A stretch of 64,000 bases of DNA from Lyngbya sp. HA4199-MV5 (lineage in GTDB: Bacteria; Cyanobacteriota; Cyanobacteriia; Leptolyngbyales; Leptolyngbyaceae), in the NCBI GenBank assembly GCA_019359375.1, contig JAHHHL010000006.1, positions 1-64,000 of the forward strand. Reading direction: 5' to 3'. Shown here piece after piece: positions 654 to 37,433 of this stretch. Position 1 is the first letter of the stretch; each line of letters begins with the position of its first letter. The position numbers and the translations under genes were made by a program. The notes under the pieces are model-generated. The model was not told the origin of the DNA. It saw only the letters and a program-made list of their open reading frames with translations, and did no database searches.

Positions 654-1415
654 TCAGGTTGCCTGTTTTTTCAATGCCTCCAGATAATTGGAGATGGCGT
701 GATCTTTAAAGCGCTGGCTCAAAAAGTTAAGGCTAAAACGCGGTCCCAGTCTGTATTCAGCCTCCACATGGCTATAGCCCTGCCACGGTCTGGGCAGCGC
801 TGGCACAATATCCATGCCGTAAACAAATCGATAGCTCTTGGGCACACGCTCGTTGAAGGAGTCCCGAAAACCGCTGTTGCCCACTCTTGGCGCTCCAAAG
901 GTGTAAAGCTCGATCGCGATCGACGAAAAATTATACTGCACATCGACGGCACATAGGGTTGCCAAAGCTCCACCCAAACTATGCCCTGTGACGGTCACGC
1001 TGGTCGTCGGGTGCTCGCGTAAGTAGGTGTGAATTTGTTCTCGCACAGAAAAGTAGGCATCCACAAAACCCTGATGCATTTTTGCGCCAGAGCTACTTTT
1101 ACCGGCGTAGGGGTAGACCTGCGCCCGGTCTTGCACAATTTGCTCTTCAATGACGGCTTGCTGAAAGTCTGCTTCTTTTTGGGAAAATTCAGCGTTGGTT
1201 TCCCAGTCCAGACGCTGCCCACTCCCCCGAAAAACGATGTAGAGCGAGGAGTCGTTGGTGCTAACGAGGATGGCACCTTGAGTATCGGTCGTCGCCTGGT
1301 TAATCCATGCGGGGGTAATGTCAGGGAAATCAGCAAACTTGAGCTGCTCAAAATCCGTGTAGATTTCTTGAGAAAGAAGGGCACATTTAATTGCTTTTGC
1401 GTTATCCATCACCAT
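654..1415 (-). CDS. Class 3 lipase (alpha/beta hydrolase)
   Basis: The 253-residue protein belongs to the lipase class 3 family (Mono-/di-acylglycerol lipase, fungal-lipase type), which hydrolyses acyl esters and releases free fatty acids. The nucleophile elbow GHSLGGA puts the catalytic Ser at 146. A likely Asp lies at 202 (GMDIVP) and a His at 216 (GYSHVE), completing the triad. The oxyanion strand is around residues 60-65 (YIVFRGSG). No signal peptide is evident. The start at 1415 has an AAGG about eight bases upstream; ATG at 1409 is an alternative. It is the last gene of the minus-strand block of lipid-oxidation genes, separated from the catalase-related gene by a MITE. A supply of fatty acid to the dioxygenase at 8097 is inferred, not shown. 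Confidence 0.85.
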   Translation of the reverse strand: MVMDNAKAIKCALLSQEIYTDFEQLKFADFPDITPAWINQATTDTQGAILVSTNDSSLYIVFRGSGQRLDWETNAEFSQKEADFQQAVIEEQIVQDRAQVYPYAGKSSSGAKMHQGFVDAYFSVREQIHTYLREHPTTSVTVTGHSLGGALATLCAVDVQYNFSSIAIELYTFGAPRVGNSGFRDSFNERVPKSYRFVYGMDIVPALPRPWQGYSHVEAEYRLGPRFSLNFLSQRFKDHAISNYLEALKKQAT

Positions 1416-1457
1416 AGTCTTACCTTGTGAGTAGAGAATAAGAATGTGTTCAAACTA

Positions 1458-1581
1458 GGGGCTGTCATCAATTACAACTACACATGACTTGCAGTGAGGG
1501 TTCCAGCCCGGGTCTCGTGTATTGGAGCGGGCGCGATGATGCTGATACCGCAAGGTTTTGGAGCTAATTGATCACGCGCCC
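1458..1581. mobile_element. MITE-like element (family M), copy 1
   Basis: The 124-base element starts GGGGCTGTCATCAATTA and ends TAATTGATCACGCGCCC, forming terminal inverted repeats of about 17 bases. Two near-identical copies occur at 25938-26062 and 31135-31258. It is flanked by TA on both sides, a possible target duplication. There is no coding capacity. The ends resemble those of IS5-type elements in cyanobacteria, but that link is from memory. It lies between the lipase and the catalase-related gene. Confidence 0.8.
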
Positions 1582-1662
1582 TAACGATCGCGCTTCTGGA
1601 TTTTAGTCTGCGAATCTTTTCACATTGATAAAAAAATGTGTCGATCATGACACGATGAGCCA

Positions 1663-2889
1663 TTATTCAAACACTTCATCTCCTGTTGGTTCATAGTGAG
1701 GCACCCCATTCATCGACTGTCGCAGTTTTGAAAGTTCCGCATACATGCGTCGTCGTGCGCGGCTTTGATTTCCCAACGGACGATGCTCAGGAATGCAGTG
1801 CCACGGGTTATATGAAAGGCGTTTGGCAAATTCCATCTGCGCTGGAGAATTGAATGTTTGCTGAGGGAGGCGCAGGGTTGCCACTGATACACGCGGCGAC
1901 AATCGCTCAGACCAGAGAACCGCGTTGTTTTCGATCGGCATCAGGTGTGCATCCGTTTGCAGTTGCAGGCGAATATCAAACTCCACATCTGCTTCTGCTA
2001 AGGCAGAAACCATCGCATTCCGCAAATAGTCATCGGGCGGACGACACGGCAACCTGGGAATGGGAGTCCGTTTCCTGGTTTTGGGGAAGATGGAATACTG
2101 CATTGCCTGACCTTCGCCTAAAAGATAGGGAACACAGCTAAAATAGGGCGCTTCAAAGGGGCTGCTTTGCGTCTTGATCCACAGCGACTGCATGATGAGA
2201 TCCAGAATGTGGGGGCGATCGACGTTCACAAAATAATACAGTTGCGCGTTCTTCAGGCTTTCAATCTGCAACTGTGCATTTGCCTTTGTGTCGGGGGTCA
2301 CAAACGTTGGTGTGGAAACGCCGAACATATCCTGGGTAAATTTCTCCTCATCCATCAGCTTTGCACCGGGTACTCCCATCAATTTAATGCTGATGCTCAT
2401 AAAGCCCACATCATCGATATCCAGTGTCACGTAGGGACCAGGACCCGAAAACCGCACCCAGGCACGGAACGTCTGGGGTTGCGCGAAGATGCCGTGCCGA
2501 AATTCCTTGGGGAGATCATCATGCACAATACACTCACCGCGCACAATGCCGTGTGTTTTGGTATTGCCGCCGCGCTCAAAGCCTCCAGGCTTCCAGAGTC
2601 CACGCATTTGTTGCTCAAAGGTGGTGATGATGGAATCGAGGAACGCCTCTTCATCGGGAAGCAGCTTTTCCTCGGCAATTTTCAATCCTTCGTTGGGTCG
2701 CTTCAGGTTGATGAGTGCTGTGGTTAAACGGGCGATCGGATCGCGCAGCACAGCATCAAAGGCAGGTCGAAAACAGGGATCAATACGGCGTTCCATCTGC
2801 AACAGAAAGGTCGCGGTATTGCTGACCCAATTCAAAAAAGCGGAGCCAGTATTGGCAGGTGGCACCGGGCGACTGGTGTTTGAGTTCAT
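1663..2889 (-). CDS. Catalase-related heme protein (AOS / hydroperoxide-lyase-like)
   Basis: The 408-residue protein carries the catalase fold signature of the catalase-related group. The distal heme region reads KTHGIVRGE with Thr112-His113. The stretch FRAWVRFS follows, then the region around DMFGVSTPTF. The proximal side shows RARRRMY, fitting R379-x3-Y383 as the heme-ligand motif. True catalases have Val before the distal His, whereas coral allene oxide synthase has Thr. The Thr here therefore favours a fatty-acid hydroperoxide-converting enzyme (synthase or lyase) over an H2O2 catalase. The protein is shorter than monofunctional catalases. It lies 48 bases downstream of the DyP gene. No good Shine-Dalgarno site precedes the ATG. 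The product specificity cannot be read from sequence. Confidence 0.75.
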   Translation of the reverse strand: MNSNTSRPVPPANTGSAFLNWVSNTATFLLQMERRIDPCFRPAFDAVLRDPIARLTTALINLKRPNEGLKIAEEKLLPDEEAFLDSIITTFEQQMRGLWKPGGFERGGNTKTHGIVRGECIVHDDLPKEFRHGIFAQPQTFRAWVRFSGPGPYVTLDIDDVGFMSISIKLMGVPGAKLMDEEKFTQDMFGVSTPTFVTPDTKANAQLQIESLKNAQLYYFVNVDRPHILDLIMQSLWIKTQSSPFEAPYFSCVPYLLGEGQAMQYSIFPKTRKRTPIPRLPCRPPDDYLRNAMVSALAEADVEFDIRLQLQTDAHLMPIENNAVLWSERLSPRVSVATLRLPQQTFNSPAQMEFAKRLSYNPWHCIPEHRPLGNQSRARRRMYAELSKLRQSMNGVPHYEPTGDEVFE

Positions 2890-2937
2890 AGCAGGAAGGG
2901 CTTCGATGGAATTGGCATGAGGGGCGTGATGTAGGCG

Positions 2938-4383
2938 TTAGGAAAGGGAGGCAAGATAGCGACAGGCGCAAATGCTGGGCAAGAAAAAGTAAGCCCCACC
3001 GCGCACCACGACAAAGTTTGGAAGACCCGTCACGCGTTTTCTCACAGGTTGCGCCTGTTCAGTGAAGTCAGCCGCGACTCCCACACCACCAGGGGCACGA
3101 TCGCCCACCAGCGGATCGGTCTCGCTGTACAGCCCATTAAATTTGGGGTTGTTGATCCAGGTTTGCTGGACGAATTCAAACTGACGCGCAATGTTGGCAC
3201 CGATGCAAATGAAGTGCAGTCCTCGTTCGCCGGAAGCTTCTGCCTGTAGCATGTCCTGGGGATTCAACGAGTCTGCTACAGGAGTTCCGTAGGTGCGACC
3301 GCGCCGCAGCAGCCGATGGGTTTTGTTGATCGCGATCGATGTTTGCGTACCTGGCTGTGGATCGAGTGAATCACGGGGATTGGAGCGTCGAATATGAGCA
3401 CCCATTGGACATTTAAAGCCGTGAGGATCGGCGTGATAATAGGCAAACGCATTCTTATCTTTCACATCTGAACGATCGCGATCAGGTGCCTCTACCAGAG
3501 GAGTCCCGCTGGGCCACCGTCCTACAAGTTTGGATGCTAACTGCACACGAGCCTCTGGATTGCTGGTGCCATCTGCTTGTTGGGTGATGCCATCCAGAAA
3601 TTGCCAGAAGTCCTGCACCTTCTGTCCCAATTGCCGAAACACCACATAGCTTCCATTGCGTCCCAGATCATGCGCTTCAGCACCCTTCTGTCCAGCGGGT
3701 AAAAGATTCTGGCGATCGCGCTCAGCGCTAACGGTAGGACTCTCAGTGAACAATCCATACTCGTTGGGATAGCCCAGAATAAATTCACCCGCTTTGACTG
3801 TATTATCGGGTGCTCCAGCTTTGCTCAGTCCTTCTACAATGGGTTGCCCGATCGCATCCCGAAACCCAAAATGCTCTCGAAAGCCCCCCTGCTCATCTTT
3901 CAACATGAAAGTGTCTAATTTGCGAATCAGCGCCACCCCACCGCTGCCAAAGGATTCTGCCAAGCCATCATAGAAGGACGTGAGTGTGACTTCATCAGTG
4001 GCATAGACCATCAACAGGATGTGGATAGGGGGGGAGTGAACGCCGCCACCCCAATCCCACAGAACAGGCGCATTATCGCCATGATCGCCCAACACACGGC
4101 TTTTATAGGGCTGCGTCATCCCCTCCCGAAACTCAGTTGAGAACGTCTCCAGTGTGGTCTGATCAAGCCCTAATGCTTTCAACCCGTCGTAGGTAAAGGC
4201 AAGATTCAGGCAGGTTTCTGAGGGGCGATCGTGACCATTCTGAAGGCGATCTGCCAGCGAACCGAGCCAGTTTCGAGTTGCGATCGCGTTTTGGATGCTG
4301 AGTAAGACAAAACAGGCGGCTTCCAGGTTGGAGTAACCCCGGACGATGATGCCTTGAATATCCTGGAGTTCGAGGGTAGACAT
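2938..4383 (-). CDS. DyP-type heme peroxidase
   Basis: The start chosen at 4383 gives 481 residues (MSTLELQDIQGI). The frame stays open 37 codons further upstream, but those codons translate only a low-complexity repeat. DyP features are present: a GxxDG-like motif GFRDAIGQP with the Asp kept but Ala in place of the usual last Gly; the proximal His in CPMGAHIRRSNPRD; and the Arg in ANIARQFEFVQQTW. DyP enzymes are dimeric ferredoxin-fold heme peroxidases that oxidise dyes, phenols and other bulky substrates with H2O2. No signal peptide or encapsulin-targeting tail is obvious. It sits between the duplicated-domain membrane gene and the catalase-related gene. A role in oxidised-lipid handling is inferred from context only. 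Confidence 0.88.
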   Translation of the reverse strand: MSTLELQDIQGIIVRGYSNLEAACFVLLSIQNAIATRNWLGSLADRLQNGHDRPSETCLNLAFTYDGLKALGLDQTTLETFSTEFREGMTQPYKSRVLGDHGDNAPVLWDWGGGVHSPPIHILLMVYATDEVTLTSFYDGLAESFGSGGVALIRKLDTFMLKDEQGGFREHFGFRDAIGQPIVEGLSKAGAPDNTVKAGEFILGYPNEYGLFTESPTVSAERDRQNLLPAGQKGAEAHDLGRNGSYVVFRQLGQKVQDFWQFLDGITQQADGTSNPEARVQLASKLVGRWPSGTPLVEAPDRDRSDVKDKNAFAYYHADPHGFKCPMGAHIRRSNPRDSLDPQPGTQTSIAINKTHRLLRRGRTYGTPVADSLNPQDMLQAEASGERGLHFICIGANIARQFEFVQQTWINNPKFNGLYSETDPLVGDRAPGGVGVAADFTEQAQPVRKRVTGLPNFVVVRGGAYFFLPSICACRYLASLS

Positions 4384-4456
4384 AGCGCGATGGAGTGGGG
4401 AGTGGGGAGTAGAGAGTGGGGAGTAGGGTGGGGGGTATGGGGTGTGGGATGGGGTG
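4384..4456. repeat. Low-complexity G-rich repeat (STRR type)
   Basis: Units of the form GGGGAGTGGGGAGTAGGG fill the gap between the DyP start and the upstream gene. Read on the minus strand they are ACTCCCCAC-like units, seen also at 33253-33330, 35210-35330, 49200-49335 and 51270-51360. They extend the DyP frame artificially upstream. Confidence 0.8.
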
Positions 4457-5767
4457 TTACAGGCGACGTAGCCATGCGTCTGTTTCTGATGCATTTAGGG
4501 GCTGGCTCAATCCGGCACGCAGTTCGGCGTTGTTGCTCAAATTGACCGCTGTTAGCTGCGGATAGGCTGTATACCAAACTTGAGTCACCATTTGACGTTG
4601 GCGAAGAAACGCCTTAAATGACTGTTCATCCTTTGCGCCATCCAGCACCAGCCATCGCGTCTTGGGATAACCGACCCCATTGCTAAAGACGGCGTTCAAG
4701 CCCCAGGCAACTTTGTTGATGAAATCATTCATATAGCTTTCCAGGCTACCGTCGTAGTTGCTCATAAACAGCACACGTCGCCCTTCATCAATGACAATCC
4801 AGCGTGCAAAATGAATGGTATCGACTCCATCCAGGTTCAGCAACGGCACCCCAGCGAGATTGCCATGATTAAATACATGACGCGCGGTGAAATTTACAAG
4901 CCACAGCAGCACTCGGACGGTTGTGAGCCGAAACAAGCCCGGTTTAATCAATCCCACCGCACTGAACTGATTTTGCACCACATGATCTTCTCGGATTGCC
5001 AGTTCATCCCGTTCCTTTGCGCTGAGCCGCAGATCAGTCTGCTGAGCATCCTGCCGTTCCTTGCGTCGTAAGATGGCTGCATAGATGGGAGAGAACGGTA
5101 GAAAGGCTAAGCCCAATACCAGGATAAGCAGCAGCCCGGTTGTGAAATGGATCGCTTCCCCAAGTCGCCAGCCTAAACTGGGTGGGACAACAGGTGCTAA
5201 CGCCCAATGAAGCGATCGCTCCTCTTTGATAAAGGCTTGAATCGCCTGCCGCACCTTGATGCCATTCCATCCTGCCCACGCCTGTTTTGCTTGTTGCTGA
5301 TCTATAAAGGTTTCAAGCTCATCACGTAGTTTTGCCTCTTGATGGATCTGAAGCACCGTCCGATTCACCGTATTCACATAAAATGCCTGAACCTTGACCT
5401 GATGGGCGTGGAGATAGGCTAAACGGCTTTGTCGATCGCGCCTACTGGGATCTGGATATCCGACGCAATGACTGTAAAGCTCATCTAACCCATTCCCCGC
5501 AATATCCACAAGATCATTAAAATACGCGTCTAACGGTGCATCAAGTTCAGTGGAAAAGGCAAGACTGGATGGAATGATCTGATTGTTTAAATCACGAGAC
5601 TCTTCCAGAATGACAAAGCGAGCAAAGTGAACCTGCCTGAACCGCGCAAACGGAATAATTGCATTTGATCCAACCGCTTGACTCATTCGCTCAAGCAACT
5701 GCCTGAGCTGGCTCATGTGGTCAGGCTTAATCCGGGCAATGATGGTAAGTGGAACTTGATGCGCCAT
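4457..5767 (-). CDS. Two-lobed membrane protein of unknown function
   Basis: I do not recognise a characterised function. The 436-residue protein has two similar halves. Residues about 1-115 contain HFARFVILEE and, further on, a segment ending HCVGYP. Residues about 265-395 contain HFARWIVIDE and a matching segment ending NGVGYP. The lobes look like ferredoxin-like (EthD/antibiotic-monooxygenase-type) modules, which is a guess from pattern. Between them is a hydrophobic stretch, FTTGLLLILVLGLAFLPF (about 218-240), followed by a charged region, so it is probably membrane-anchored. It lies 73 bases upstream of the DyP gene on the same strand. The pairing of an internal duplication with a peroxidase cluster makes a substrate- or heme-handling partner plausible but unproven. 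Confidence 0.7.
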   Translation of the reverse strand: MAHQVPLTIIARIKPDHMSQLRQLLERMSQAVGSNAIIPFARFRQVHFARFVILEESRDLNNQIIPSSLAFSTELDAPLDAYFNDLVDIAGNGLDELYSHCVGYPDPSRRDRQSRLAYLHAHQVKVQAFYVNTVNRTVLQIHQEAKLRDELETFIDQQQAKQAWAGWNGIKVRQAIQAFIKEERSLHWALAPVVPPSLGWRLGEAIHFTTGLLLILVLGLAFLPFSPIYAAILRRKERQDAQQTDLRLSAKERDELAIREDHVVQNQFSAVGLIKPGLFRLTTVRVLLWLVNFTARHVFNHGNLAGVPLLNLDGVDTIHFARWIVIDEGRRVLFMSNYDGSLESYMNDFINKVAWGLNAVFSNGVGYPKTRWLVLDGAKDEQSFKAFLRQRQMVTQVWYTAYPQLTAVNLSNNAELRAGLSQPLNASETDAWLRRL

Positions 5768-5970
5768 GATTCACAACTCAGTTTCAATAGAATTTAACGA
5801 TCGTGGTAACGAAGACGTTATAGAAGCTTTTGGTAGCAGACACTCAGGGCTATTTCATCCTAAGCATCGAGTCCTATTGACAATCGCTGTGGGATACAGC
5901 GGATCAATGAGCGGCAAACGGTAAAAACATCCGTTTCATCTGTTCCCATCCGCTGCTCACCCTACAACCT
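5768..5970. other. Short spacer, nothing assigned
   Basis: No gene was found here. The stretch CCGTTTCATCTGTTCCCATC near 5931-5950 resembles fragments in the repeat-rich spacer at 45990-46190, so it may be repeat debris. Confidence 0.5.
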
Positions 5971-6169
5971 GATTGACTGACAAAAGTCTTGAAAGGTTGG
6001 TCGCTTCGTTGCTCACCCGCCCGTGATTCAAATCCGGGCTAATGGTGCGAAACCCGTTAAAACGGGTTGTAAGGCGCTCGTAATCCTCTTGAGAGGACTT
6101 CCTGCCATCAGCCCGTACTTTCAGTACAGGGCGGGTTCAAGGACTTGCTAAAAGATTTGTCAGTCAACC
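5971..6169. repeat. Long palindromic structured element (non-coding)
   Basis: The outer ends form an imperfect inverted repeat: GATTGACTGACAAAAGTCTT on the left and GATTTGTCAGTCAACC with TTCAAGGACTT on the right. Inside are nested hairpins: AACCCGTTAAAACGGGTT (about 6051-6068), CCTCTTGAGAGG (6089-6100) and GCCCGTACTTTCAGTACAGG (about 6112-6131). A GATTCAAATCCGGG stretch resembles a tRNA T-arm. The arrangement recalls palindrome-ended IS200/IS605-type non-autonomous elements or a structured RNA. No transposase or TnpB frame is present. It lies between the unknown gene ending at 6214 and the membrane-protein gene, so it would be transcribed within that operon if it is one. Confidence 0.6.
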
Positions 6170-6213
6170 AGCTCTACAACTCTGACTGCTCAGCAGAAAC
6201 AATGATCATTGCT

Positions 6214-6645
6214 CTAGAATTCGAGAATAAAATTCAAAATCCTTGTTTTGCCCCAGTATGCCTGTCCCAAATAAAGACCCGGTGCCACTTCTCGAATTTC
6301 ATCGCGGATTTTTTGAGCCACAAAAGACGTTTTAGAATAGTCCAGGACGATCGCTTCTCCACCGTCAATCCAGCTATCGCCCTTGTAAATCTGCGCTTTT
6401 ACTAACTGCACACTCAAGGGAGACACTTTATTGAATAAGTATTCCTGATCACGATGAAAAACTTTTCCTTTCCAGGCTAAGACCTTGATTAAAGGCATCA
6501 GCACCTTGCTGATCAGGGTTCCCGGCATTACCATTGCCGTACCCTGGCTATCCCCATTGGGTAGTGATCCCATTGAACTTTTTTGATACAAAGCATCTAG
6601 CTCGGCTTGAGACATTTTGGTCAGATCTGCTGTTGTAATGGTCAT
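6214..6645 (-). CDS. Conserved-looking small protein of unknown function
   Basis: The 143-residue protein is soluble and lacks a signal peptide or a family I can name. The N-terminal part (about 8-22) is helical and acidic (MSQAELDALYQKSSMG). The rest alternates hydrophobic and charged segments, with KVLAWKGKVF around residue 55 and an aromatic-rich C-terminus (APGLYLGQAYWGK). The start at 6645 is well supported by GAGGTG five bases upstream, the best ribosome-binding site in this block. It lies 101 bases downstream of the next gene on the same strand and upstream of the structured element. An overlapping plus-strand frame (6145-6405) has no support. Function is unknown; gene order suggests a role with the neighbouring heme enzymes. 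Confidence 0.65.
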   Translation of the reverse strand: MTITTADLTKMSQAELDALYQKSSMGSLPNGDSQGTAMVMPGTLISKVLMPLIKVLAWKGKVFHRDQEYLFNKVSPLSVQLVKAQIYKGDSWIDGGEAIVLDYSKTSFVAQKIRDEIREVAPGLYLGQAYWGKTRILNFILEF

Positions 6646-6746
6646 GCCATCACCTCGTTGTGATTAATGGTTAAAGCAGCCAATGATTAAATCAGTGTTG
6701 AGAATGCATACGAGAGTAAATTGACAAATTCCCGATCGCGTGACGT

Positions 6747-7664
6747 TTATTGATTACGAAAGCGTTGATGCCTGAAGAACAGCCGTCGATCGCCATAGTC
6801 GGAGGCAACAAATTCAGATGTGGTTTCAATCGAGCCAATGAGTTGAGCGTTCTGTCGGTAGTCCGGTTGATCAACGCCGTCATTGCCATTTGCTGGATCA
6901 ACTCCGTACACTGAAAACAGAGCTGTTCCTGGCGCAATGGTTGCTAAGTCGGTTCTAAAATCATGGGGCGGCGCTTCAGCAAACTGTACCGCTTTATGGG
7001 GCACTAAAAAGATACGTAAGGGATAGTGGGGTGCTTTCTCTGCCTGCCCGTCTTGACGAACAACTCCCAAATTCTGAAGGTCAAGCTTTGTGGGATAGCG
7101 AGAGGTTCGCCTGAAGATCAAATTGATTAGTTTTGGACCCAGGCGATTGACGACAGGCACAATGTTGGAAAACTCATTGGCAAAAAAGTTGTAATTTTTA
7201 CCCTGCCCGTCGAGCGATACGAGTGCCGAAAAGTTAGCCGATGGTTGACCATCAATGAAAAACTTCGCTGCCAGCCCTGGTGCGAAGCCGCGCTTGGTGG
7301 GATCGCCCGTCACAGACAACCGTAGAAGCCCATAATCAGCCCCCTTAAACAACCCCGTAAACAGTGTCTCCACTGCCGGCACAAACCTCACCTTTGCCAC
7401 ACTAGCATGGGCATGAATGGCTTTTTTCCAGTGTTGCGGTGCTTCATCAGAGAGACGATCCATCTTGGCGTTGAGAACCGTGAGAAATAAGCCAAACACA
7501 TCAATTTTCTTAAGAGCAGGCAAGCGATCGTATTGAGAGGGCAACAGGCGTTGCTGCCACAAAAAACGCTGTTTTTCCTCAGCAGTCCAGGATTGATAGT
7601 CATCTGGTAAAGAGCTATCCTGTATTGCAGCATCGTCTTGTGTCATGTTCTCAGAGCTTTGCAT
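6747..7664 (-). CDS. Unknown protein, possibly catalase-fold-like
   Basis: I chose ATG 7664 (305 residues); 7646 is equally possible, and an upstream extension to 7838 looks like non-coding sequence. The region around residues 110-165 runs LLRLSVTGDPTKRGFAPGLA, then KFFIDG, then NFFANEFSNIVP. Its order (RLS, RGFAPG, KFF, hydrophobic strand, FF) recalls the catalase core that binds heme. I see no clear distal His or R-x3-Y proximal motif, so this is only a possible remote relationship. The N-terminus (about 15-70) is polar and helical. The gene is the first of the minus-strand block and diverges from the COX-like dioxygenase at 8097, so the two may share a control region. Confidence 0.6.
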   Translation of the reverse strand: MQSSENMTQDDAAIQDSSLPDDYQSWTAEEKQRFLWQQRLLPSQYDRLPALKKIDVFGLFLTVLNAKMDRLSDEAPQHWKKAIHAHASVAKVRFVPAVETLFTGLFKGADYGLLRLSVTGDPTKRGFAPGLAAKFFIDGQPSANFSALVSLDGQGKNYNFFANEFSNIVPVVNRLGPKLINLIFRRTSRYPTKLDLQNLGVVRQDGQAEKAPHYPLRIFLVPHKAVQFAEAPPHDFRTDLATIAPGTALFSVYGVDPANGNDGVDQPDYRQNAQLIGSIETTSEFVASDYGDRRLFFRHQRFRNQ

Positions 7665-8096
7665 CAGCGTGTGATCTCGCAATAAGTTTTGTTGAGGGAA
7701 TATTAACAAACGCTCATTTTTTGAGCAGCAACACGTTAGATAACGGTAGTATTTCTCAGTGGTATTTCTTAGTCGTCTTTTACCCAAAAGTGACTTGCTC
7801 TGCCCGCGATCGATCGTTGCCAGAATTCGGTTTAGCATCGGGTCAGGAAGCGCGATTAATCAATCACTGCGGAAAAGGCAATGGGGTGTTCGTTGCGCCC
7901 TTCTGATTTTTCTCTTGGCTGATTCATGCACGCTATTCTACAGACCTCATGCAAACTTTGAAAGTACCCGAAAGGGTGCTGCCTCCATTACTAGAAGTTG
8001 CTAGAGTGCTTCTGCTAGTGCTTTCAACACGTATGCCGACGAAAAGCTGACTTGTTAATTTTTTATAGTTAATTGTCCTCATGAGGCGATCGCATC
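7665..8096. promoter_or_regulatory. Divergent control region between dioxygenase and unknown gene
   Basis: This 430-base spacer separates two genes pointing outward, so promoters for both should lie here. On the plus strand an AT-rich segment, TTGTTAATTTTTTATAGTTA (around 8052-8071), sits about 30 bases before the dioxygenase ATG and may contain a -10 element. A small hairpin, AGTACCCGAAAGGGTGCT, lies near 7963-7980. No operator can be assigned to a known regulator. Confidence 0.35.
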
Positions 8097-9863
8097 ATGT
8101 CTAAAACTCCCTGGCATCAGCTACCAACCCCTTTAGCCTTGCTTGAATTATTTAAGTTTCGTCGAGTGTTACGAGACAAAAATCTTCATGACACATCGCA
8201 GTTACCGCATCAAGACAAGCTGCCTCAACCCCCTGCTCCCAGTCCCGATGGTCGTCATCTAACCGCTCGCAACGCAGATGGCAGCTACAACGACCTTGAA
8301 CATCCAGAGATGGGGATGATAGGCACCCGGTTTGGGCGAAATGTGCCGTTAGCCGATGCAAACGTGGATGAGGCAAATTTACTCAAACCCAGCCCTCGTT
8401 TGGTCAGCAGCAAACTACTGGCGCGTGAAGAATTTAAACCCGCTACGATTTTGAATTTGTTGGCGGCTGCCTGGATTCAGTTTGAAACCCATGATTGGTT
8501 CAGTCATGGCAACAATCAGCCTGACCAAAAAATCAAGATTCCTTTAAATCCCGATGACACCTGGGAGCAGGAGCATCATCAACCACTGGCGATCGACAAA
8601 ACATTGGATGATCCCACCCGCACTGGAGACTCCAAACGTCCTGCAACGTTTATCAACCACGAAACCCATTGGTGGGATGCATCACAGATCTACGGCAGCA
8701 GTCAGGAGCGCATTGATGAGCTGCGGTCTCATGTGGATGGAAAGATGCAGATCGGGGATGATGGGTTGCTGCCTATTGATCCAACCACGGGCATTGATCG
8801 CGTCGGGAATCCGGGTACGTGGTGGTTGGCAATGGGGTTGCTGCATACCCTCTTTGTGAAAGAACATAATGTGGTGTGCGATCGCCTGAAGCAAGCCTAT
8901 CCAGACTGGAACGATGATCAACTGTTTGACCACGCCCGCCTGATTATTGCGGCGCTGACCGCCAAAATTCATACGGTTGAATGGACTCCAGCCATTTTGC
9001 CCCATCCCGCCACTAAAATTTCACTTCATGCCAACTGGTGGGGCATTCTGGGACCTGACTTCAAACGCATTTTTGGGCGCATTGGCGACAGCGAAATTCT
9101 CAGTGGCATTGTAGGTTCGTCCACCGATCACCACAGCACACCCTACTACCTGACCGAGGAATTTACCTCTGTTTATCGGATGCATCCCCTGGTGCGCGAT
9201 GAGTATGAGTTCCATTCCATCAAAACGGGTAAATTGATTCAAACAAACACGCTGTTTGACCTCTTTGGAAAGCAAGCGCGTACCCTGATGGAATCCATAC
9301 CGATGGCGGATCTGTTCTACTCGTTTGGGTTGATGCATCCGGGTGCTGTGACGCTGCACAACTACCCTCACTTTTTGCGGCAACTGGTGAAAGAGAATGG
9401 AGAAGCCTTTGATCTCGCTGCGGTCGATATTCTGCGCGATCGGGAGCGGGGAGTACCCCGTTACAATCGCTTCCGTGAATTGCTTGGTCGCGGACGGGTG
9501 AAATCGTTTGAGGAGATTACCAGCAATCCACAATGGGCAAAGGAACTGCGGGAAGTCTACAACAACGATGTTAACAGTGTGGACTTGATGGTTGGGCTGT
9601 ATGCCGAAGATTTACCAGATGGCTTCGGGTTTAGCGATACGGCATTCCGGGTGTTTATTTTGATGGCTTCTCGCCGTTTAAAGAGCGATCGCTTCTTCAC
9701 CAAAGATTACCGGGCTGAAGTGTACACCCAATTGGGATTGGATTGGATTGAAAACAACACCATGCTGACCGTGCTACGCCGTCATCACCCTGAATTGGCT
9801 CCCGCTCACGTCGGTATTGATAATGCCTTTGCGCCCTGGGGCGTTTTTATGCACCAGGCGTAG
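8097..9863 (+). CDS. Cyclooxygenase/alpha-dioxygenase-like heme fatty-acid dioxygenase
   Basis: The 588-residue protein belongs to the animal heme peroxidase (peroxidase-cyclooxygenase) superfamily. The distal His is His132 in FETHDWFSHG. The segment NHETHWWDASQIYGSS (about 188-203) is the conserved Asp-x-SQ-x-YG region. VYRMHPLVRD gives Tyr360-Arg-Met-His363, the YRxH arrangement of alpha-dioxygenases, linoleate diol synthases and prostaglandin synthases. There the Tyr forms the radical and the His binds heme. Plain peroxidases lack this Tyr spacing, so a fatty-acid oxygenase is more likely than a peroxidase. There is no signal peptide and no EGF domain. GAGG lies 12 bases before the ATG. 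A cyanobacterial COX relative acting with a catalase-related enzyme has been described in Nostoc; this locus has both types. Confidence 0.85.
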   Translation: MSKTPWHQLPTPLALLELFKFRRVLRDKNLHDTSQLPHQDKLPQPPAPSPDGRHLTARNADGSYNDLEHPEMGMIGTRFGRNVPLADANVDEANLLKPSPRLVSSKLLAREEFKPATILNLLAAAWIQFETHDWFSHGNNQPDQKIKIPLNPDDTWEQEHHQPLAIDKTLDDPTRTGDSKRPATFINHETHWWDASQIYGSSQERIDELRSHVDGKMQIGDDGLLPIDPTTGIDRVGNPGTWWLAMGLLHTLFVKEHNVVCDRLKQAYPDWNDDQLFDHARLIIAALTAKIHTVEWTPAILPHPATKISLHANWWGILGPDFKRIFGRIGDSEILSGIVGSSTDHHSTPYYLTEEFTSVYRMHPLVRDEYEFHSIKTGKLIQTNTLFDLFGKQARTLMESIPMADLFYSFGLMHPGAVTLHNYPHFLRQLVKENGEAFDLAAVDILRDRERGVPRYNRFRELLGRGRVKSFEEITSNPQWAKELREVYNNDVNSVDLMVGLYAEDLPDGFGFSDTAFRVFILMASRRLKSDRFFTKDYRAEVYTQLGLDWIENNTMLTVLRRHHPELAPAHVGIDNAFAPWGVFMHQA

Positions 9864-17182: not shown

Positions 17183-17377
17183 GTGAAAACCTACCGTGTG
17201 CTTCTCTTAACGGCTTTATTGCTGTGCTCCAAAGGGATCGCTGCCATTGCGCTTGAGCCAGTGCCAACAGGTCAACCTTCCGCTTCAGGTATGCAGACTC
17301 AGCTTGTGGTGCCGAACTCCTGTAAACTGTTTCGTGTTGGTGTTCCGGGTCGCCGTGAGGGTGCAGGAACGCGTTAG
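17183..17377 (+). CDS. Short exported peptide, unrecognised
   Basis: A GTG start preceded by AGAGGGAATT gives 64 residues: KTYRVLLLTALLLCSKGIAA is a convincing signal peptide, followed by about 40 residues without a known domain. A longer version from 17147 is possible. The stop overlaps the tpsB-type gene end by four bases in convergent orientation. It may be a real small secreted protein or the N-terminal remnant of a larger one. Confidence 0.35.
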   Translation: MKTYRVLLLTALLLCSKGIAAIALEPVPTGQPSASGMQTQLVVPNSCKLFRVGVPGRREGAGTR

Positions 17378-19095
17378 AAGGGCTGATAACGCAGGGAGAA
17401 GAAGAGTCCGTTGTCTTGTAGTGAATTGCCAGATTCACCGACTGATATCAGCGGAATGCCATAGTCAACCCGCACTTCAAAGCCGGGACTCACCAGCCAG
17501 CGCACGCCGAGACCAAGACTGGCGATCGTCTGCGGGTCAGGATTTGCACCCCGATTGTTCCAGGCACTGCCAATTTCAAGGAACGGGGTAAGCTGCAAAA
17601 GACTCGGATTCTTCGTCAGGGGAAAGCGCAGTTCTAAGGAACCCACTACGCCATTATCTGATACCAGTTGATTTTGGCGATACCCCCGCACTGTATCGAT
17701 ACCCCCCACGCTAAAGCGCTCTAAGGGCAGCAGTGAGTCGGGAGTCAGTTGAGCCGCCACGCGACTAATCAACACAACTCTAGGCGATAGCTGTTGCACC
17801 CACTGAAACTGCCCCAGCCATGCGAAAAAGCGACCATCGGTACCAAGATTGTTCACGGTCGCATCAAAGGCGTTGATACCCAGGCTGAACTGCGATCGTG
17901 CTGCCAGCACCCGTGTGGCACTGCGATCGACCCAATCTTGAAATAAGCGAATCACGGTGACGTTTGATTCACCTTCATCAGGACCTTCGGAGAACGAGAA
18001 CGGAACATTATCCAAAATAAAGGTTTGACTACGGCGCAAATCAAGCCCTAAACCAACTGCAAATTCACTGCGCGGCGATCGCTGCACGGGCTGACGCACA
18101 GTGAACGAAAGCGTCCGAGTTTTGCTCCGAATGCCTAAAGCTTGAAAGGGTGCTTCAATAATTTCACTGCTATTGTTGCCGTAGCTGATGCTCGCGGTGC
18201 CATTGAGCGCATTGAAAGGCACCGTATAGCTGAAACTGTAGAGGTCGAGTGCTTCGGTTTTACCGTAGTTGGCAGTGAGGCGATCGCCAAAACCGAGCAC
18301 ATTATCATAAGAAGCAAAGATGCTGCCAGCGATGGAACCCACGCTGGGTGGCTGATCGTTGGCGATCGCAAAACCAAGATGCCACGGTGACGCTTCTTGT
18401 AACGTGACGCGCAAACGGTTGCGACCGGGACCCGTACCAGCGGTGAGTTCGGCGTTGACCTGAGCAATGAGCGGATCAAGCTGCAATAGTTGTAATGCTT
18501 CTTCGAGTCGTTGACGATTCAGAGGTGCTTTGGCTGCACGCTGTAAACGGCTCCGCACATAGCGATCGCGTAAATGGGTTAAACCATCAATTTCAATTTG
18601 CTCTAGCGTGCCTTCCACCACTTGAATCTGCACAACACCCTGATCTAAGGATTGATTTTGCAAGAAGGCACCAGACGTGATGTAACCGTTGCTGATGTAG
18701 AGTTGGGTGATGCTGGCACGCAGATTCAGCAGGTCTTCAAACGTTGCTTCTTTGCCCTCATACTCTTTCACCAACGCAGCAATCTCGCGCTGCAAAACGG
18801 TAGGGTTCCCAACGATCTCGATTTTCCGAATCAAAAACCGTTCGCCGCTGGGCACGGATGGTTCCGGTGAAACTGGTGTAGGGGGCGTTTCTAAACGCGG
18901 TGATGGTGTCGGACTGGGTGCAACAGAAGGCAGGTTGGGAGATTGAGAGGGTGTGGGGATGGTTTGATCAATCGGTGCATTGGATGGCACGGTGACACCA
19001 GCAGGGGGAATCGATTGGGCAACCGCGATCGCCGCCCTGCTCAACAGAACGGCAAGGCTGGCGATCGCAACGATCATACGTCTCAAGGCGCGCAC
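17374..19095 (-). CDS. TpsB outer-membrane transporter (ShlB/FhaC/HecB family)
   Basis: The 573-residue protein secretes a TpsA partner across the outer membrane. Residues 1-27 are a signal peptide; the GTG at 19095 supplies the basic n-region, whereas ATG 19077 would remove it. Residues about 30-80 are a Pro/Ser/Thr-rich linker. A POTRA-2 domain spans about 85-165 (FLIRKIEIVGNP to VVQIQVVEGTLEQIEIDG), followed by a second POTRA-like segment to about 230. The rest is a 16-strand barrel containing VRGYRQNQLVSDNG, the conserved Omp85-superfamily VRGY loop motif. The start overlaps the end of the upstream tpsA-like gene by 13 bases, so the two are translationally coupled partners. Confidence 0.92.
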   Translation of the reverse strand: MRALRRMIVAIASLAVLLSRAAIAVAQSIPPAGVTVPSNAPIDQTIPTPSQSPNLPSVAPSPTPSPRLETPPTPVSPEPSVPSGERFLIRKIEIVGNPTVLQREIAALVKEYEGKEATFEDLLNLRASITQLYISNGYITSGAFLQNQSLDQGVVQIQVVEGTLEQIEIDGLTHLRDRYVRSRLQRAAKAPLNRQRLEEALQLLQLDPLIAQVNAELTAGTGPGRNRLRVTLQEASPWHLGFAIANDQPPSVGSIAGSIFASYDNVLGFGDRLTANYGKTEALDLYSFSYTVPFNALNGTASISYGNNSSEIIEAPFQALGIRSKTRTLSFTVRQPVQRSPRSEFAVGLGLDLRRSQTFILDNVPFSFSEGPDEGESNVTVIRLFQDWVDRSATRVLAARSQFSLGINAFDATVNNLGTDGRFFAWLGQFQWVQQLSPRVVLISRVAAQLTPDSLLPLERFSVGGIDTVRGYRQNQLVSDNGVVGSLELRFPLTKNPSLLQLTPFLEIGSAWNNRGANPDPQTIASLGLGVRWLVSPGFEVRVDYGIPLISVGESGNSLQDNGLFFSLRYQPF

Positions 19096-22000
19096 TCCCG
19101 ACTCATCACCAGCTTGCCATTTGCTAACCGATATATACCTTGCGGTTCCGCGATCGGATCACCCGGTTGCCACGCTCTACTACTCCCGACTCCCGACTCC
19201 CGACTCCCTGCTTCTGGCAGCGATCGCACGTCCCCGGTTGGAAAGGATGCGGTTGGTGCATCACCGGGGCGCACAGGCAAACCACCAGAGCCTGTGATTT
19301 GAAAGACACCGCCTGACTCACGCTTTTTTTCACGATTGCGAACGATGCAGCTATTCGCCAGCAGGGTGTTGGGGTCGATAAATTGTTGAGCTAGCTCTGC
19401 CAGGTTATTTTCGATCACACTGGTATTGAGAGCCGTAATAACCGTGATGCCAGAAGCCCCAAAGCGAGAACTGGTCGTAATGTCATTAGAAGTCAGGAAA
19501 TCACCCGATCGACGCGCAATGCCAAATAATCCTGTACCGCCGTTTATATCATTAATTGTGATGATTCCCCCCGCACCTGTAAACGCTTGAGAGCGAATAT
19601 TACTATTTCGTGATGGAACCGCGATGATAAACGGTGTAGTAATGGTGATCTTACCGCCATCTCCATCAGAGGGTCGCAAGCCAGCCGACGTTGAAATATT
19701 ACTGTTGCGACGGAGGAGTATGTACTCCCTGGAATCTATTTGAACATTGCCGCCCTTTCCTGATAACGTTGCTCCTGTAATGATGCTATTTCGATCTAAT
19801 TCAACATTTCTCGTAGCGATTTCAATATTGCCTGCGGCTCCTTCTAAGCCTCCATTGGCTACGCTAATCGCGGCTCCGTCTGTAAGGGCAACATTTCTGG
19901 CAAGAACTTCAATTCCACCGCCTTTGTTTGTACTATTACCACCCACAGCGCTGAAAATACCGCTTCCCCTGCCTCTGAGCGAGACTTCACCGCTAGTCTG
20001 AACAGAAATCAGTCCCGCATCTCCCTTCCCAAAGGTTGAGGTGGTTAACCCAGAGGCATTGGTTGCAGAGAATGAACCAGCCTGTAGTAGAATTCCACCA
20101 GCGATTCCTACTGCACCTTCCAGTACACTGCTAAAGACAACACTCCTGTTGTCCAGAGAAACCGCACCGTTAGGGGCTTGTAGAAAAACCAATCCAGCAT
20201 TGCCAGTGCCACCCGTTTGAGCTTGCAATTGTGACACGTTCTTCAGGGAGATAGACGCACCTGAGATCACAATGCCACCTGCATTTCCCACGGCTCCAGG
20301 TTGCACGGAACTAAAAATGGTACTGTTGTCCAGGGAAACCGCACCACCAGGGGCTTGTAGAAAAACCAATCCAGCATTACCGACACCGCTGGTTTGGACT
20401 TGCAATTGCGCTCTGTTTTGTAAAGATATAGATCCCCCTGAAATAAAGATATTGCCTGCATTTGCAAATCCACCTTGACCAGAGGTGGCAGAATTAATGA
20501 GGGCACCGTTGCTTAGAGAGAAAGAACCAGCGGTAGTGACCGCAACAGATCCACCCGCGCCCGCATCCCGTGTATCGACGAATAAGCCACTAGTATCAAA
20601 CTCTCGAATTAAAACATCTTGCCTTGTGGTACCCCGTGCATCTGGGCTGCGCACAAATTGGTCTATCTTTCTCAACCGATCCTGGAAATTAGGGTCTCTG
20701 CCTGAAATCGTCACTCGATCGATTGCATTCACGGTGATAATTCCAGCAGATCCTGTGGTTGTTCCACGGGCATCTACGCGGTTGCCGCTAGCCGCCAGAA
20801 TTTGCCCACCTGCCAGAGCTTCAAAGGTTCGGCTATTAATCGTAATGTTGCCACCATTGCCATTGTTACGAGTACTCGCAATGACGGCTCCTCCGGATTC
20901 AACACGAAACAACCCGGCACCAGCATTATTAAAGTTACTAGTTCCTACATCGACAGTGATGTTGCCTGCTGAACCAGACGCTCCCCGCTCACTCAGAGAC
21001 AGCAGACCACTTGAAAAGCCATTGGAGCTGGTACCAGAGATATAAACCAGATCAGAAGCAACAACACCGATATTCCCTCCCTGTCCTCGACCGCCGGGTG
21101 TGACAATTCTGGTTGTTGGATCTGTGGCGGTTCTGAATAGCTCAGTTTGAACCTGGGAACCGCCTGTTAACAGTAAAGCACGTGCCCGAATAAAAATATC
21201 TGATGCTTTACCGTTTCCGCCAGGTTCGACTGTGCCTCGAATTTGGCTACTGCCTGATAGAGAAACGGTATCATCCGCCAGAACTGAAATCAGATCACCC
21301 GCATTTCCCTGCCCGAACGTACTTGATGCAACGTAGGCTCGATTTGTTAAGAATACAGACTTGGCGCTGATTGAAATGTTGCCACCTTCAGCCACCCCCG
21401 ATGCCTGGCTGGTGACCTGCTTTCCTGAAAGGAAGAATGCTCCATTGATGCTTCTGATGTTAATTTCGCCTGCCTGCCCAACCGTTGTGCCCGTTGAAAA
21501 CGCTTGCACATTTCCTGCAAAAATATCGCCAAACGCATCGAAGGTGATTTTACCGCTGATGCCATTCTCGGTCGATGACGATAACGTACCTGCTGTTGTA
21601 TCAATGGAGCCTAGCGCACTAAAGAGGGTGATGTTACCCGAAAATCCGGCACTTCCTGCTCCAACACGAGATTCAATATTCCGCGTGATGATATTGCCAA
21701 GAGCCGTTAATGTGACATTGCCTCCATAGCCGCTCGCGTTTGCTCCCACTAAAGATTGAATGCCTGTCGTAAGCGTATTGCCACTGAAGTCAGGAGCCAA
21801 GGCAGTGGTATTGATAGAACCCCCTCTGCTGGTGATTGTGACTGCTCCAGCCTGCCCTCTACCTCCAGTGCCCACTAAAGATTGAATACCAGCGGTCAAA
21901 ACATCACCTGCCGCATTAATGGTGACAGTGCCACCATTCCCGTTGGTTGCGGATGAATATAACGTTCCAGCGCTGGTATCAACACTGCCATTGCTGCTGA

Positions 22001-23588
22001 TAATTGCAATATTTCCACCATCACCAGTTCCTCCAGCACCAACATAGGATTGAATGCCAGCCGTAGCAATAGTCTGGTTAGCTGCCAGTGTAATGTTGCC
22101 TGCACTGCCATTAGCCGAAATGGATCTTAAATTACCGCCGCGAGTGTTAATGCCACCCAGCCCGCCAAATAAGGTAATATCACCCCCTTTTCCATTGGCA
22201 ATGCTGACATCGATCGCACCCGTCGTCAGAATACCGCCGGAAGCGTCAATAATCGCTTCTCCGCCAGCCGTCTGGATGCCTCCAGTGACAATAACGCCCG
22301 GTGAGAGCAACGCATTGGGGGCAATTTGGTTGGTCAGCAGTACGCCACCAAAGGCGGTCATTGTGACATTACCAATCACAATGTTGGCACCACTGGGAGG
22401 AAGAGACCCGGCAAAAAGAGGAGAAGCCAGAAAGAATTCGGTCGTTCCTGCACGAATTTCGAGCGTGGGAATCGTGCTCCCCAGGATTGTTCGCCGAGTG
22501 CCATCTGAGAGTTGAATCTCGCTGTCGTTGAAGCCGCCACCTGCACCTGTAATGGTGACACCACCAGGAATAAACACGCTGCCACCCGCCAAAATTTGCA
22601 GGGAGGTTCCACTGTAGCTAAATAAGGAAAAGTCTCCTAAAACCTGAAATACAGGGTCATTAGGGCTGGTTAAACGACCGAGGCTATGATCTAACTGCTC
22701 TACCCAAAGGTTTCCTCCACTTGTAAAGTGGCTATCGCCAATGATGGGCGCTGCCGATCGCAACACCATATTTCCACCCGAAAATAACCCGCTATTCGGA
22801 TGATTCAACGCAAAAATGTCCACTAATCGATCGCCCTGCACCAGCAAATTTCTACCTGCTGACGCAATAAAGGGATTGGTGGCGCTGTCACGAATACGAA
22901 CGGTATCCTGCGCTTTTAAAGTCAAATCGCCGCCCGATCGCAGTTGTCCTTGCAACTCCAAATTGTCCGCTGCCAATGTGAGATTACGTCCAGCGATTAA
23001 CGTGCCAGAGTTCTGAATCGTTCTCGGCTGTTGTAGCTGTTGATCAAAAAAGAGGGCACCGGGGGCGATCGCCAGCAAACTACTTTGAGCGGGTTGGGTC
23101 GCGCTAAAAAAGCCCTGATCGCCCAACTTAATCGCATTGGCGGTTGTGGCGGTAAATGAGCCTGCCACATCCAGGCTGGCATTGGCACCAAACACAATCC
23201 CATTGGGATTAAGAAAGAATAGATTGGCATTCCCCAGCACACCGAGTCTGCCCAAAATTTCAGAGCGGGTGTTGCCTGTGACGCGACTCAGAATGTTTTC
23301 AATGCCTGCTGGATTCGCGAAATACGCCCCTCGCCCCTCGCCAATATTGAACTGCTGAAAACTGTGAAATAAATTGCTGCCGCGAATCGCACCGCCATCA
23401 ATGCGATCGCTGGGCAATCCTCGAATGACGGTGTTTGGTCTTACAACAGAGCGCTCAGTACCCAGAGAGGCATCTGGTACGATCTGAGCCATTGTGCGGT
23501 CAGGCAATATGGCAGTGATTGCACAGACCACTCCAACCCAACGGATGACATTGGCGCACTGCTGAACCACTACTGAATACTTCTTCAT
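19083..23588 (-). CDS. TpsA-type filamentous haemagglutinin-like exoprotein
   Basis: The 1501-residue secreted protein has an N-terminal signal region (about 1-35), then the TPS/haemagglutination activity domain (about 40-165). That domain holds the hallmark NLFFLNPNGIVFGANASL and the following Gly-rich strand. The rest is a long beta-helix built from variable repeats of the form GAxGNAGxI-x-L/V, with NxGNGGNI units. The C-terminus has NSCIVRNREKK and a terminal IYRLANGKLVMSRECAP, a Cys-containing tail common in cyanobacterial TpsA proteins. An in-frame low-complexity insert (GSRESGVGSS) encoded by CCCGACTCCCGACTCC units lies near residue 1455. It directly precedes and overlaps its TpsB. Roles in adhesion or surface interaction are typical for the family. 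Confidence 0.9.
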   Translation of the reverse strand: MKKYSVVVQQCANVIRWVGVVCAITAILPDRTMAQIVPDASLGTERSVVRPNTVIRGLPSDRIDGGAIRGSNLFHSFQQFNIGEGRGAYFANPAGIENILSRVTGNTRSEILGRLGVLGNANLFFLNPNGIVFGANASLDVAGSFTATTANAIKLGDQGFFSATQPAQSSLLAIAPGALFFDQQLQQPRTIQNSGTLIAGRNLTLAADNLELQGQLRSGGDLTLKAQDTVRIRDSATNPFIASAGRNLLVQGDRLVDIFALNHPNSGLFSGGNMVLRSAAPIIGDSHFTSGGNLWVEQLDHSLGRLTSPNDPVFQVLGDFSLFSYSGTSLQILAGGSVFIPGGVTITGAGGGFNDSEIQLSDGTRRTILGSTIPTLEIRAGTTEFFLASPLFAGSLPPSGANIVIGNVTMTAFGGVLLTNQIAPNALLSPGVIVTGGIQTAGGEAIIDASGGILTTGAIDVSIANGKGGDITLFGGLGGINTRGGNLRSISANGSAGNITLAANQTIATAGIQSYVGAGGTGDGGNIAIISSNGSVDTSAGTLYSSATNGNGGTVTINAAGDVLTAGIQSLVGTGGRGQAGAVTITSRGGSINTTALAPDFSGNTLTTGIQSLVGANASGYGGNVTLTALGNIITRNIESRVGAGSAGFSGNITLFSALGSIDTTAGTLSSSTENGISGKITFDAFGDIFAGNVQAFSTGTTVGQAGEINIRSINGAFFLSGKQVTSQASGVAEGGNISISAKSVFLTNRAYVASSTFGQGNAGDLISVLADDTVSLSGSSQIRGTVEPGGNGKASDIFIRARALLLTGGSQVQTELFRTATDPTTRIVTPGGRGQGGNIGVVASDLVYISGTSSNGFSSGLLSLSERGASGSAGNITVDVGTSNFNNAGAGLFRVESGGAVIASTRNNGNGGNITINSRTFEALAGGQILAASGNRVDARGTTTGSAGIITVNAIDRVTISGRDPNFQDRLRKIDQFVRSPDARGTTRQDVLIREFDTSGLFVDTRDAGAGGSVAVTTAGSFSLSNGALINSATSGQGGFANAGNIFISGGSISLQNRAQLQVQTSGVGNAGLVFLQAPGGAVSLDNSTIFSSVQPGAVGNAGGIVISGASISLKNVSQLQAQTGGTGNAGLVFLQAPNGAVSLDNRSVVFSSVLEGAVGIAGGILLQAGSFSATNASGLTTSTFGKGDAGLISVQTSGEVSLRGRGSGIFSAVGGNSTNKGGGIEVLARNVALTDGAAISVANGGLEGAAGNIEIATRNVELDRNSIITGATLSGKGGNVQIDSREYILLRRNSNISTSAGLRPSDGDGGKITITTPFIIAVPSRNSNIRSQAFTGAGGIITINDINGGTGLFGIARRSGDFLTSNDITTSSRFGASGITVITALNTSVIENNLAELAQQFIDPNTLLANSCIVRNREKKRESGGVFQITGSGGLPVRPGDAPTASFPTGDVRSLPEAGSRESGVGSSRAWQPGDPIAEPQGIYRLANGKLVMSRECAP

Positions 23589-23675
23589 ATCAGAGCAGCC
23601 TTGAAAAAACGGCAGTCAATTTTTTTAGGTAGTCTAACAGGTAGCCTAAATGGTTACAAAACTACATCGAATGCA

Positions 23676-25736: not shown

Positions 25737-25937
25737 GGTCATCCTCCGATTAGGGTGGTTGACTTCCACAGTAGGGAAACGCCCCTGGAGACTCACGTAC
25801 CTTTTCTACCAGACTGCTGGCAGCCTTTTGACAACGCAATGGCACGATCGCGCGACCCCATTTGCCGAAAGCTGCCAGCGCAAAGAAACGCTGAAGGTTT
25901 GCGACTGAAGGTTTGCGATCGTGGGCAGCAGTTGCTA

Positions 25938-26062
25938 GGGGCTGTCATCAATTACGATTACACATCAGTTGCAGCAGGGGTTCCAGCCTCTAGCCTGGTG
26001 TGTTGGGGCGGGCGCGATGATGCTGATACTGCAAGGTTTCGGAGCTAATTGATGACGCGCCC
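25938..26062. mobile_element. MITE-like element (family M), copy 2
   Basis: The 125-base element has the same ends as copy 1 (GGGGCTGTCATCAATTA and TAATTGATGACGCGCCC) and TA on each side. It lies in the spacer between the divergent subtilase and DUF928 genes. Confidence 0.82.
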
Positions 26063-26212
26063 TAAGCTACTGGCAAAAAAGCTATTGGCAAAAAAGTGTC
26101 ATTGTTGGCGATGCTGATTGCCGAAATCTACATCACCTCTGACCATAAAGAGGCTGGTTTAATCGGTTGTTCTTCAGTAGTGTGGCAGTAACTTATCCCC
26201 CAATCAACTGAT

Positions 26213-27007: not shown

Positions 27008-27028
27008 TCCTGGTTAGTGTAATCGTGG

Positions 27029-32264: not shown

Positions 32265-32289
32265 TACGAAAGATCAAGAGTCGTGTGTG

Positions 32290-34527
<2,238 letters not shown>

Positions 34528-35320: not shown

Positions 35321-35329
35321 AGGAGATTT

Positions 35330-37408: not shown

Positions 37409-37433
37409 GGAATCCCCCTTTAAGGAACCCCCT

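Follow-up and report, generated by a model that had tools for sequence, protein, structure and literature searches.

Seven genes including a haem dioxygenase

We analysed a 64,000-nucleotide stretch of DNA from the cyanobacterium Lyngbya sp. HA4199-MV5 (the window: positions 1 to 64,000 of contig JAHHHL010000006.1, assembly GCA_019359375.1) and focused on a putative fatty acid oxidation locus at positions 654-9863. The closest genomes are those of Stenomitos rutilans and S. frigidus, whose dioxygenase is 93% identical to that of the window. Seven predicted open reading frames (ORFs) are present, six on the minus strand and one on the plus strand (8097-9863), and this agrees with the positions and strands given in an initial annotation of the sequence.

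A class 3 lipase gene (654-1415, minus strand; Pfam Lipase_3, PF01764, E 6.8e-34), whose product has a GHSLG nucleophile elbow at residue 144, is linked to the other genes without belonging to their core. It is followed on the same strand by genes for a 408-residue catalase-related protein (1663-2889), a DyP-type peroxidase (2938-4383), a double ABM-like (ferredoxin-like) membrane protein (4457-5767), a 143-residue protein modelled as a lipocalin/FABP-like beta barrel (6214-6645) and a sixth protein (6747-7664). A divergent intergenic region of 432 bp (7665-8096) separates the probable start of the sixth gene from the plus-strand dioxygenase ORF. Alignment to relatives places the likely start of the DyP gene at 4383 and not at 4494, where it would overlap the neighbouring gene, and that of the sixth gene at 7664, not 7838. 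The families first assigned to the lipase, the DyP enzyme and the haem dioxygenase were borne out by Pfam (Lipase_3, DyP domains and An_peroxidase, respectively) and, for DyP, by TIGR01413.

The dioxygenase resembles plant alpha-dioxygenases

The dioxygenase matches Pfam An_peroxidase with an E value of 2.1e-114. Full-length phmmer matches were obtained with the plant alpha-dioxygenase (alpha-DOX) structures 4kvj (412 bits, 3.5e-122) and 4hhr (389 bits, 4.4e-115), whereas COX-2 scores no more than 60 bits. Judged by sequence, the enzyme is thus a fatty acid alpha-dioxygenase and not a linoleate 10S/COX-type enzyme. The initial annotation had taken it for a COX-like relative of a Nostoc enzyme, which these scores contradict; a linoleate 10S-dioxygenase was ruled out by the scores together with the active-site residues, the Nostoc sequence itself not being directly compared.

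We surveyed these residues in 32 alpha-DOX hits, each with at least 480 aligned residues. The equivalents of rice H311, W315, T316, Y379, H382 and R559 are kept in all 32. In the window enzyme, Y360 is the catalytic tyrosine and H363 the proximal histidine (rice Y379 and H382), H292, T297 and R527 correspond to the residues that position the carboxylate and alpha-carbon (rice H311, T316 and R559), and H132 is the distal haem histidine. The catalytic, proximal and contact residues are named in PMC8720084, which also describes the reaction as oxygenation at C2 and then decarboxylation, which gives the Cn-1 aldehyde; some 2-hydroxy acid is formed as well. Since the residues with which plant alpha-DOX binds the carboxylate and carries the radical are retained, the window enzyme is predicted to form an (R)-2-hydroperoxide and the Cn-1 aldehyde. 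A mid-chain hydroperoxide lyase route is the wrong chemistry for such an enzyme.

The distal haem position is variable among the 32 hits (19 His, 11 Arg, 2 Lys). All enzymes with Arg or Lys are actinomycete and account for most of the actinomycete hits (loci L023, L024, L025, L026 (dox2), L027-L029, L032, L034, L035 and L054-L056). In plant alpha-DOX the distal haem histidine serves activation by peroxide.

A gene order shared by cyanobacteria and Streptomyces

One scan of genome contigs yielded 22 alpha-DOX loci, at which the seven window proteins were compared by tblastn. Genes for the membrane protein, DyP and the catalase-related protein stand beside alpha-DOX at nine of them, four cyanobacterial (L015, L016, L019, L020) and five in Streptomyces (L025, L027, L028, L032, L035). 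With further genomes included, the three genes are found at 12 of 30 distinct alpha-DOX loci besides the window (L061 repeats L030, and contig ends truncate several loci). The small barrel gene is of good length at nine of these twelve, partial at two (L027, L054) and absent from L028. Throughout, the order small protein, membrane protein, DyP, catalase-related protein is constant; alpha-DOX itself is divergent (window, L015, L016, L020), upstream (L019) or downstream (Streptomyces). That two phyla share this order next to the dioxygenase, with identities of 44-93% overall and ~44-52% between the phyla, indicates that the neighbourhood is more than chance. Conservation outside this strain, the check proposed initially, was found in cyanobacteria and in Streptomyces, so one of the two outcomes that were to refute the initial proposal did not occur. 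Of the seven families proposed as one set, the small, membrane, DyP and catalase-related proteins recur together, the lipase is not part of the core, and the sixth protein was found beside alpha-DOX in cyanobacteria only.

A search that started from the membrane protein found it in 4 of 245 Streptomycetales genomes, one of them the genome of the query itself, and in all four it lies in the cassette. Among 292 cyanobacterial genomes, four carry alpha-DOX and one the full membrane protein, in addition to one fragment of it beside a DyP fragment. No viral contig encodes the membrane protein, and none of 19 plasmid records holds a relative covering more than 80% of its length, while fusions (see below) did turn up on plasmids. 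Placing the cassette on a tree built from 33 alpha-DOX rows takes three changes of state, so it was gained or lost more than once.

Broken cassettes were also seen. The catalase-related gene is split by ~2.3 kb in L054 (11231-13519) and reduced to its 3' end in L029 and L034 (near 9280-9430), and fragments of the membrane protein and DyP lie at 8034-9300 of L058, a Nostocales-like genome.

The catalase-related protein and its fusions to alpha-DOX

By itself, the 408-residue protein has no Pfam or NCBIfam match, and searched singly it finds no catalase-fold protein either. A profile built from 13 relatives, three of them fused or second-type rows, matches the mini-catalase 3e4w (5.6e-8) and coral allene oxide synthase 1u5u (3.5e-4), and on these matches the label catalase-related holds, as first assigned. 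In a sequence alignment of 18 proteins (12 from cassettes, 6 fused or second-type), the proximal Arg-x-x-x-Tyr is invariant (R379 and Y383 in the window). The position of the catalase distal His is Asn in 12 of 12 cassette proteins (Asn109 in the window) and His in all six others; that of the distal Asn is Ser in 12 of 12 (Ser192) and Asn in five of the six. By this alignment the cassette proteins lack the distal His and Asn of classical catalases and of the Thr-His allene oxide synthase type. Over a weak local stretch, the profile alignment with coral allene oxide synthase sets the cassette Asn opposite a His that we take to be the haem-distal one. The Thr-His signature on which the initial annotation had relied is present in the window (residues 112-113), but it reads His in five, Gln in one and Tyr in six of the 12 cassette proteins. 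It was rejected as a haem-distal motif, being variable in relatives and displaced by several residues from the distal position in the alignment.

Fusions of a catalase-related domain to alpha-DOX were found at four loci, in Streptomyces and Rhizobiales. A single 954-residue ORF in Streptomyces ochraceiscleroticus (L026) contains both, and a Rhizobiaceae contig (L030) has the same architecture with 56% identity over residues 11-945. Fusions of 942 and 949 residues lie on plasmid pRetR611c of Rhizobium phaseoli (L064) and on a Phyllobacterium plasmid (L065), both with Pfam Catalase and An_peroxidase above cut-off. In the alpha-DOX tree, their alpha-DOX parts fall into a single, fully supported group. 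When the whole class was searched, 1 of 289 alphaproteobacterial genomes had the fusion, namely the one on which the search was centred, so the fusion is rare. These natural fusions back the proposed coupling of the catalase-related protein to the dioxygenase, and it is the best supported link of the pathway set out below. Neither the cassette nor the fusion has an account in the literature collection consulted, a partial one covered by titles and abstract openings.

DyP, the membrane protein and the two smaller proteins

The DyP enzyme matches TIGR01413 (E 1.3e-29) and PDB 8re3 (3.4e-54). Its proximal histidine H330 (in HIRRSNPRD) and catalytic aspartate D176 (in GFRDA) are invariant in 10 of 10 sequences; within the latter motif, the Gly of GxxDG is changed to Ala. 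The neighbouring membrane protein gave a single, chance-level match among PDB sequences. Its AlphaFold2 (AF2) model (predicted local distance difference test, pLDDT, 76) has two ferredoxin-like lobes, the second of low confidence in places, and a long helix (residues 198-240) containing a hydrophobic segment near residues 205-233 by hydropathy. The best structural match is the double ABM/SchA-like protein WhiE-ORFI (9lmn_B; Z 15.6, root mean square deviation 3.8, 228 aligned). In proteins of 1423-1620 residues (L066-L068) from Novosphingobium, Sulfitobacter and Pararhizobium, relatives of the membrane protein sit between an N-terminal P450 domain and a C-terminal DyP domain. A P450 haem motif can be read in two of the three, and the portion that was compared aligns with structures of bacterial P450s.

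For the small protein, one of five AF2 models (pLDDT 79) is a beta barrel; the other four are poor (pLDDT at most 57). The barrel matches 4mve best (Z 12.6), with other barrels and lipocalins at Z 8 or less, and Foldseek returned FABP-type proteins at E ~0.02 and weaker. The folds that these models share with known proteins demonstrate no function for either the small or the membrane protein. A comparison of the double-ABM protein with the small protein showed no kinship. Distant relatives of the barrel protein (26-28% identity) are encoded directly upstream of alpha-DOX, with the other cassette genes absent, in a Mycobacteriaceae locus (L031, 9301-9969) and an actinomycete metagenome-assembled genome (L036, 9455-9877).

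The sixth protein, for which a catalase fold had been considered, has no PDB match and no profile match to the catalase-related set. The profile-profile probability is 0.1%, and that assignment was dropped. At the loci compared, its gene lies near alpha-DOX only in cyanobacteria, eight times besides the window (L007, L008, L015-L020); L009 and L010 hold distant relatives.

Acyl hydrolases recur near alpha-DOX

We searched 25 alpha-DOX-bearing genomes whole, with the plasmid loci L063-L065 outside the survey. A patatin or class 3 lipase lies within 7 kb of alpha-DOX in 15 of them (11 by Pfam, 4 by tblastn), against ~0.2 expected by chance for the Pfam matches, a hand estimate from 88 hits in ~187 Mb of related and hence not independent genomes. 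The other ten genomes, S. frigidus among them, have none within this distance. Patatins occur in Nostocales (L007, L008), L026, L057 and Phyllobacterium; that of Streptomyces (L027, L032 and others) is large. In L029, the gene lying downstream of alpha-DOX has no Pfam match by itself; its relatives in L027 (below cut-off) and L056 (above) match patatin, which identifies it as a patatin too. Qingshengfaniella has an alpha/beta hydrolase near alpha-DOX, and L014 another class 3 lipase. In the window's own lineage, the class 3 lipase adjoins the cassette in two of three Stenomitos genomes and is linked to it in L015. The recurrence of acyl hydrolases near alpha-DOX supports this part of the initial reading; the class 3 lipase itself is not a core member.

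Other neighbours of alpha-DOX

A second alpha-DOX neighbourhood, with a flavin mononucleotide oxidoreductase (OYE-like) and a RoxA-like cytochrome, occurs in Nostocales and Alphaproteobacteria (L017, 4745-8397; L018, 12944-16904; L057, 4656-7546); at L063 (3418-4887) and L064 (8766-10424; R. phaseoli) only the cytochrome was matched. GMC oxidoreductases lie near alpha-DOX in L007, L008 and L026. These neighbourhoods suggest that alpha-DOX is a hub of several oxidation routes. A mobilizable plasmid of Calothrix sp. PCC 6303 (pCAL6303.01, L062) carries alpha-DOX, a homologue of the sixth gene, a GMC oxidoreductase and a patatin, with transposases nearby; the alpha-DOX of this strain is 69% identical to that of the window. 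In Streptomycetales (L025-L029, L032, L034, L035, L054-L056), a protein of 129-137 residues with a weak DUF4267 match precedes alpha-DOX, and in L026 such a protein also precedes the GMC oxidoreductase.

Elsewhere in the window, reading of the sequence alone named large haemagglutinin-like repeat proteins, a TPS-type transporter-like protein and CHAT-like domains (17374-29791 and 52401-57071), and a chemotaxis-like cluster (32287-45662) with CheA, methyl-accepting, HEAT-repeat, CheR and CheB proteins and response regulators.

A proposed alpha-oxidation pathway

We think it rather probable that these genes make up a cassette for alpha-oxidation that is conserved among bacteria. The protein families, the active site of alpha-DOX, the conserved linkage, both types of fusion and the recurrent acyl hydrolases can all be read from the sequences, and from them we infer a full route from lipid to oxylipin. 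An acyl hydrolase, in the window the class 3 lipase, would free a fatty acid, and the putative lipocalin/FABP-like protein may carry the acid or its product. The tyrosyl radical of alpha-DOX would add O2 at C2 to give the (R)-2-hydroperoxy acid, which the catalase-related haem protein would take over before unguided decarboxylation and isomerise or dehydrate, cleave to the Cn-1 aldehyde or reduce to the 2-hydroxy acid. DyP and its double-ABM partner, presumably tethered to the membrane, could then oxidise the product or use leftover peroxide. The end product might be a volatile or signalling oxylipin, and in both cyanobacteria and streptomycetes the probable role of the gene set is to convert fatty acids to reactive molecules for signalling or defence. 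A bolder and more tentative proposal, to which we give somewhat less than even chances, is that at least three phyla share an undescribed alpha-oxidation pathway: a catalase-related haem domain, whether encoded near alpha-DOX or joined to it in one protein, would take up 2-hydroperoxy fatty acids for a new reaction, in the cassette form with Asn/Ser and no distal His, and an ABM-DyP pair tethered to the membrane would complete oxylipins of a new class.

Several observations weigh against a dedicated cassette. Most of the 30 other alpha-DOX loci lack it, so alpha-DOX does not need it, and L029 and L034 combine alpha-DOX and a patatin with a mere remnant of the catalase-related gene. The lipase of S. 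frigidus lies on another contig, unlinked from the cassette. The kinship between the cassette catalase-related protein and the fused domain is weak (~30%), and the absence of distal His and Asn means that peroxide chemistry by the cassette form is not assured. Both AF2 models were built on shallow alignments of 9-10 sequences.

Alternatively, alpha-DOX could simply make aldehydes, with the catalase-related protein and DyP clearing hydroperoxides and H2O2 and no dedicated product. DyP and catalase relatives are peroxide enzymes, the core motifs of DyP are kept, and alpha-DOX needs peroxide for activation. Yet the distal His and Asn of catalases are missing from every cassette protein aligned, it is hard to see what the ABM-like and barrel proteins would do in detoxification, and fusion to alpha-DOX suggests a shared substrate; we regard such housekeeping as unlikely. 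Slightly less credence goes to the idea that DyP, or the P450 in the fusions, spends the 2-hydroperoxides as oxidants on a non-lipid substrate held by the ABM-like protein. It draws on the P450-ABM-DyP fusions, in which Pfam reports no reductase domain, and on the nearest folds of the membrane protein, the polyketide-tailoring ABM proteins 9lmn and 9ltx. However, the cassettes inspected showed no neighbouring polyketide synthase, though no systematic search was made, no alpha-DOX was noticed beside the three P450-ABM-DyP genes, and DyP enzymes use H2O2 well without a supplier of 2-hydroperoxides.

The model of the initial annotation, a COX-like linoleate dioxygenase feeding a Thr-His hydroperoxide lyase as in Nostoc punctiforme, is very improbable. 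A haem dioxygenase does lie near a catalase-related protein, as reported for the Nostoc pair in PMC13049297, but the bit scores favour alpha-DOX over COX by 412 to at most 60, the carboxylate residues are intact and Thr-His is not conserved. A chance neighbourhood of unrelated genes, for which the rarity of alpha-DOX and of the full membrane protein in cyanobacterial genomes might speak, is already refuted by the order shared between phyla and by the fusions, and we give it practically no weight.

Alpha-DOX enzymes serve in the production of aldehyde aroma compounds. The cassette, the catalase-related fusions and the recurrent lipases offer a direct path from membrane lipid to product that can be tested in culturable Streptomyces and cyanobacteria. 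They would also place two uncharacterised families, the double-ABM and barrel proteins, in a pathway.

Comparison with known systems

The window alpha-DOX resembles CsDOX, CalDOX, LepDOX, AtDOX1 and OsDOX in family, catalytic Tyr, haem His and carboxylate-binding His/Thr/Arg. CsDOX, CalDOX and LepDOX have been characterised, and the available parts of the accounts (PMC8720084, PMC9305512) describe single enzymes and mention no neighbourhood, partner haem protein or fusion. The DyP enzyme is like 8re3 and Alr1585 (5c2i) in family, proximal His motif and Asp, and differs from them in its constant double-ABM neighbour in the cassettes and in having GFRDA for GxxDG.

Brash is said to have described, in 2014, a Nostoc punctiforme linoleate 10S-dioxygenase acting with a catalase-related 10S-hydroperoxide lyase. 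In both systems the haem dioxygenase belongs to the COX/peroxidase superfamily and has a catalase-related partner. Unlike the Nostoc pair, the window has an alpha-DOX predicted to oxygenate C2, additional DyP, double-ABM and barrel proteins, and a partner without the distal His. The fusions recall coral allene oxide synthase-lipoxygenase (1u5u, 3dy5), with weak profile kinship, in joining a catalase-related domain to a fatty acid dioxygenase; the oxygenase of the coral protein is a lipoxygenase, whereas that of L026, L030, L064 and L065 is a haem alpha-DOX. The proposed pathway would extend the coral and Nostoc pairing to C2 chemistry.

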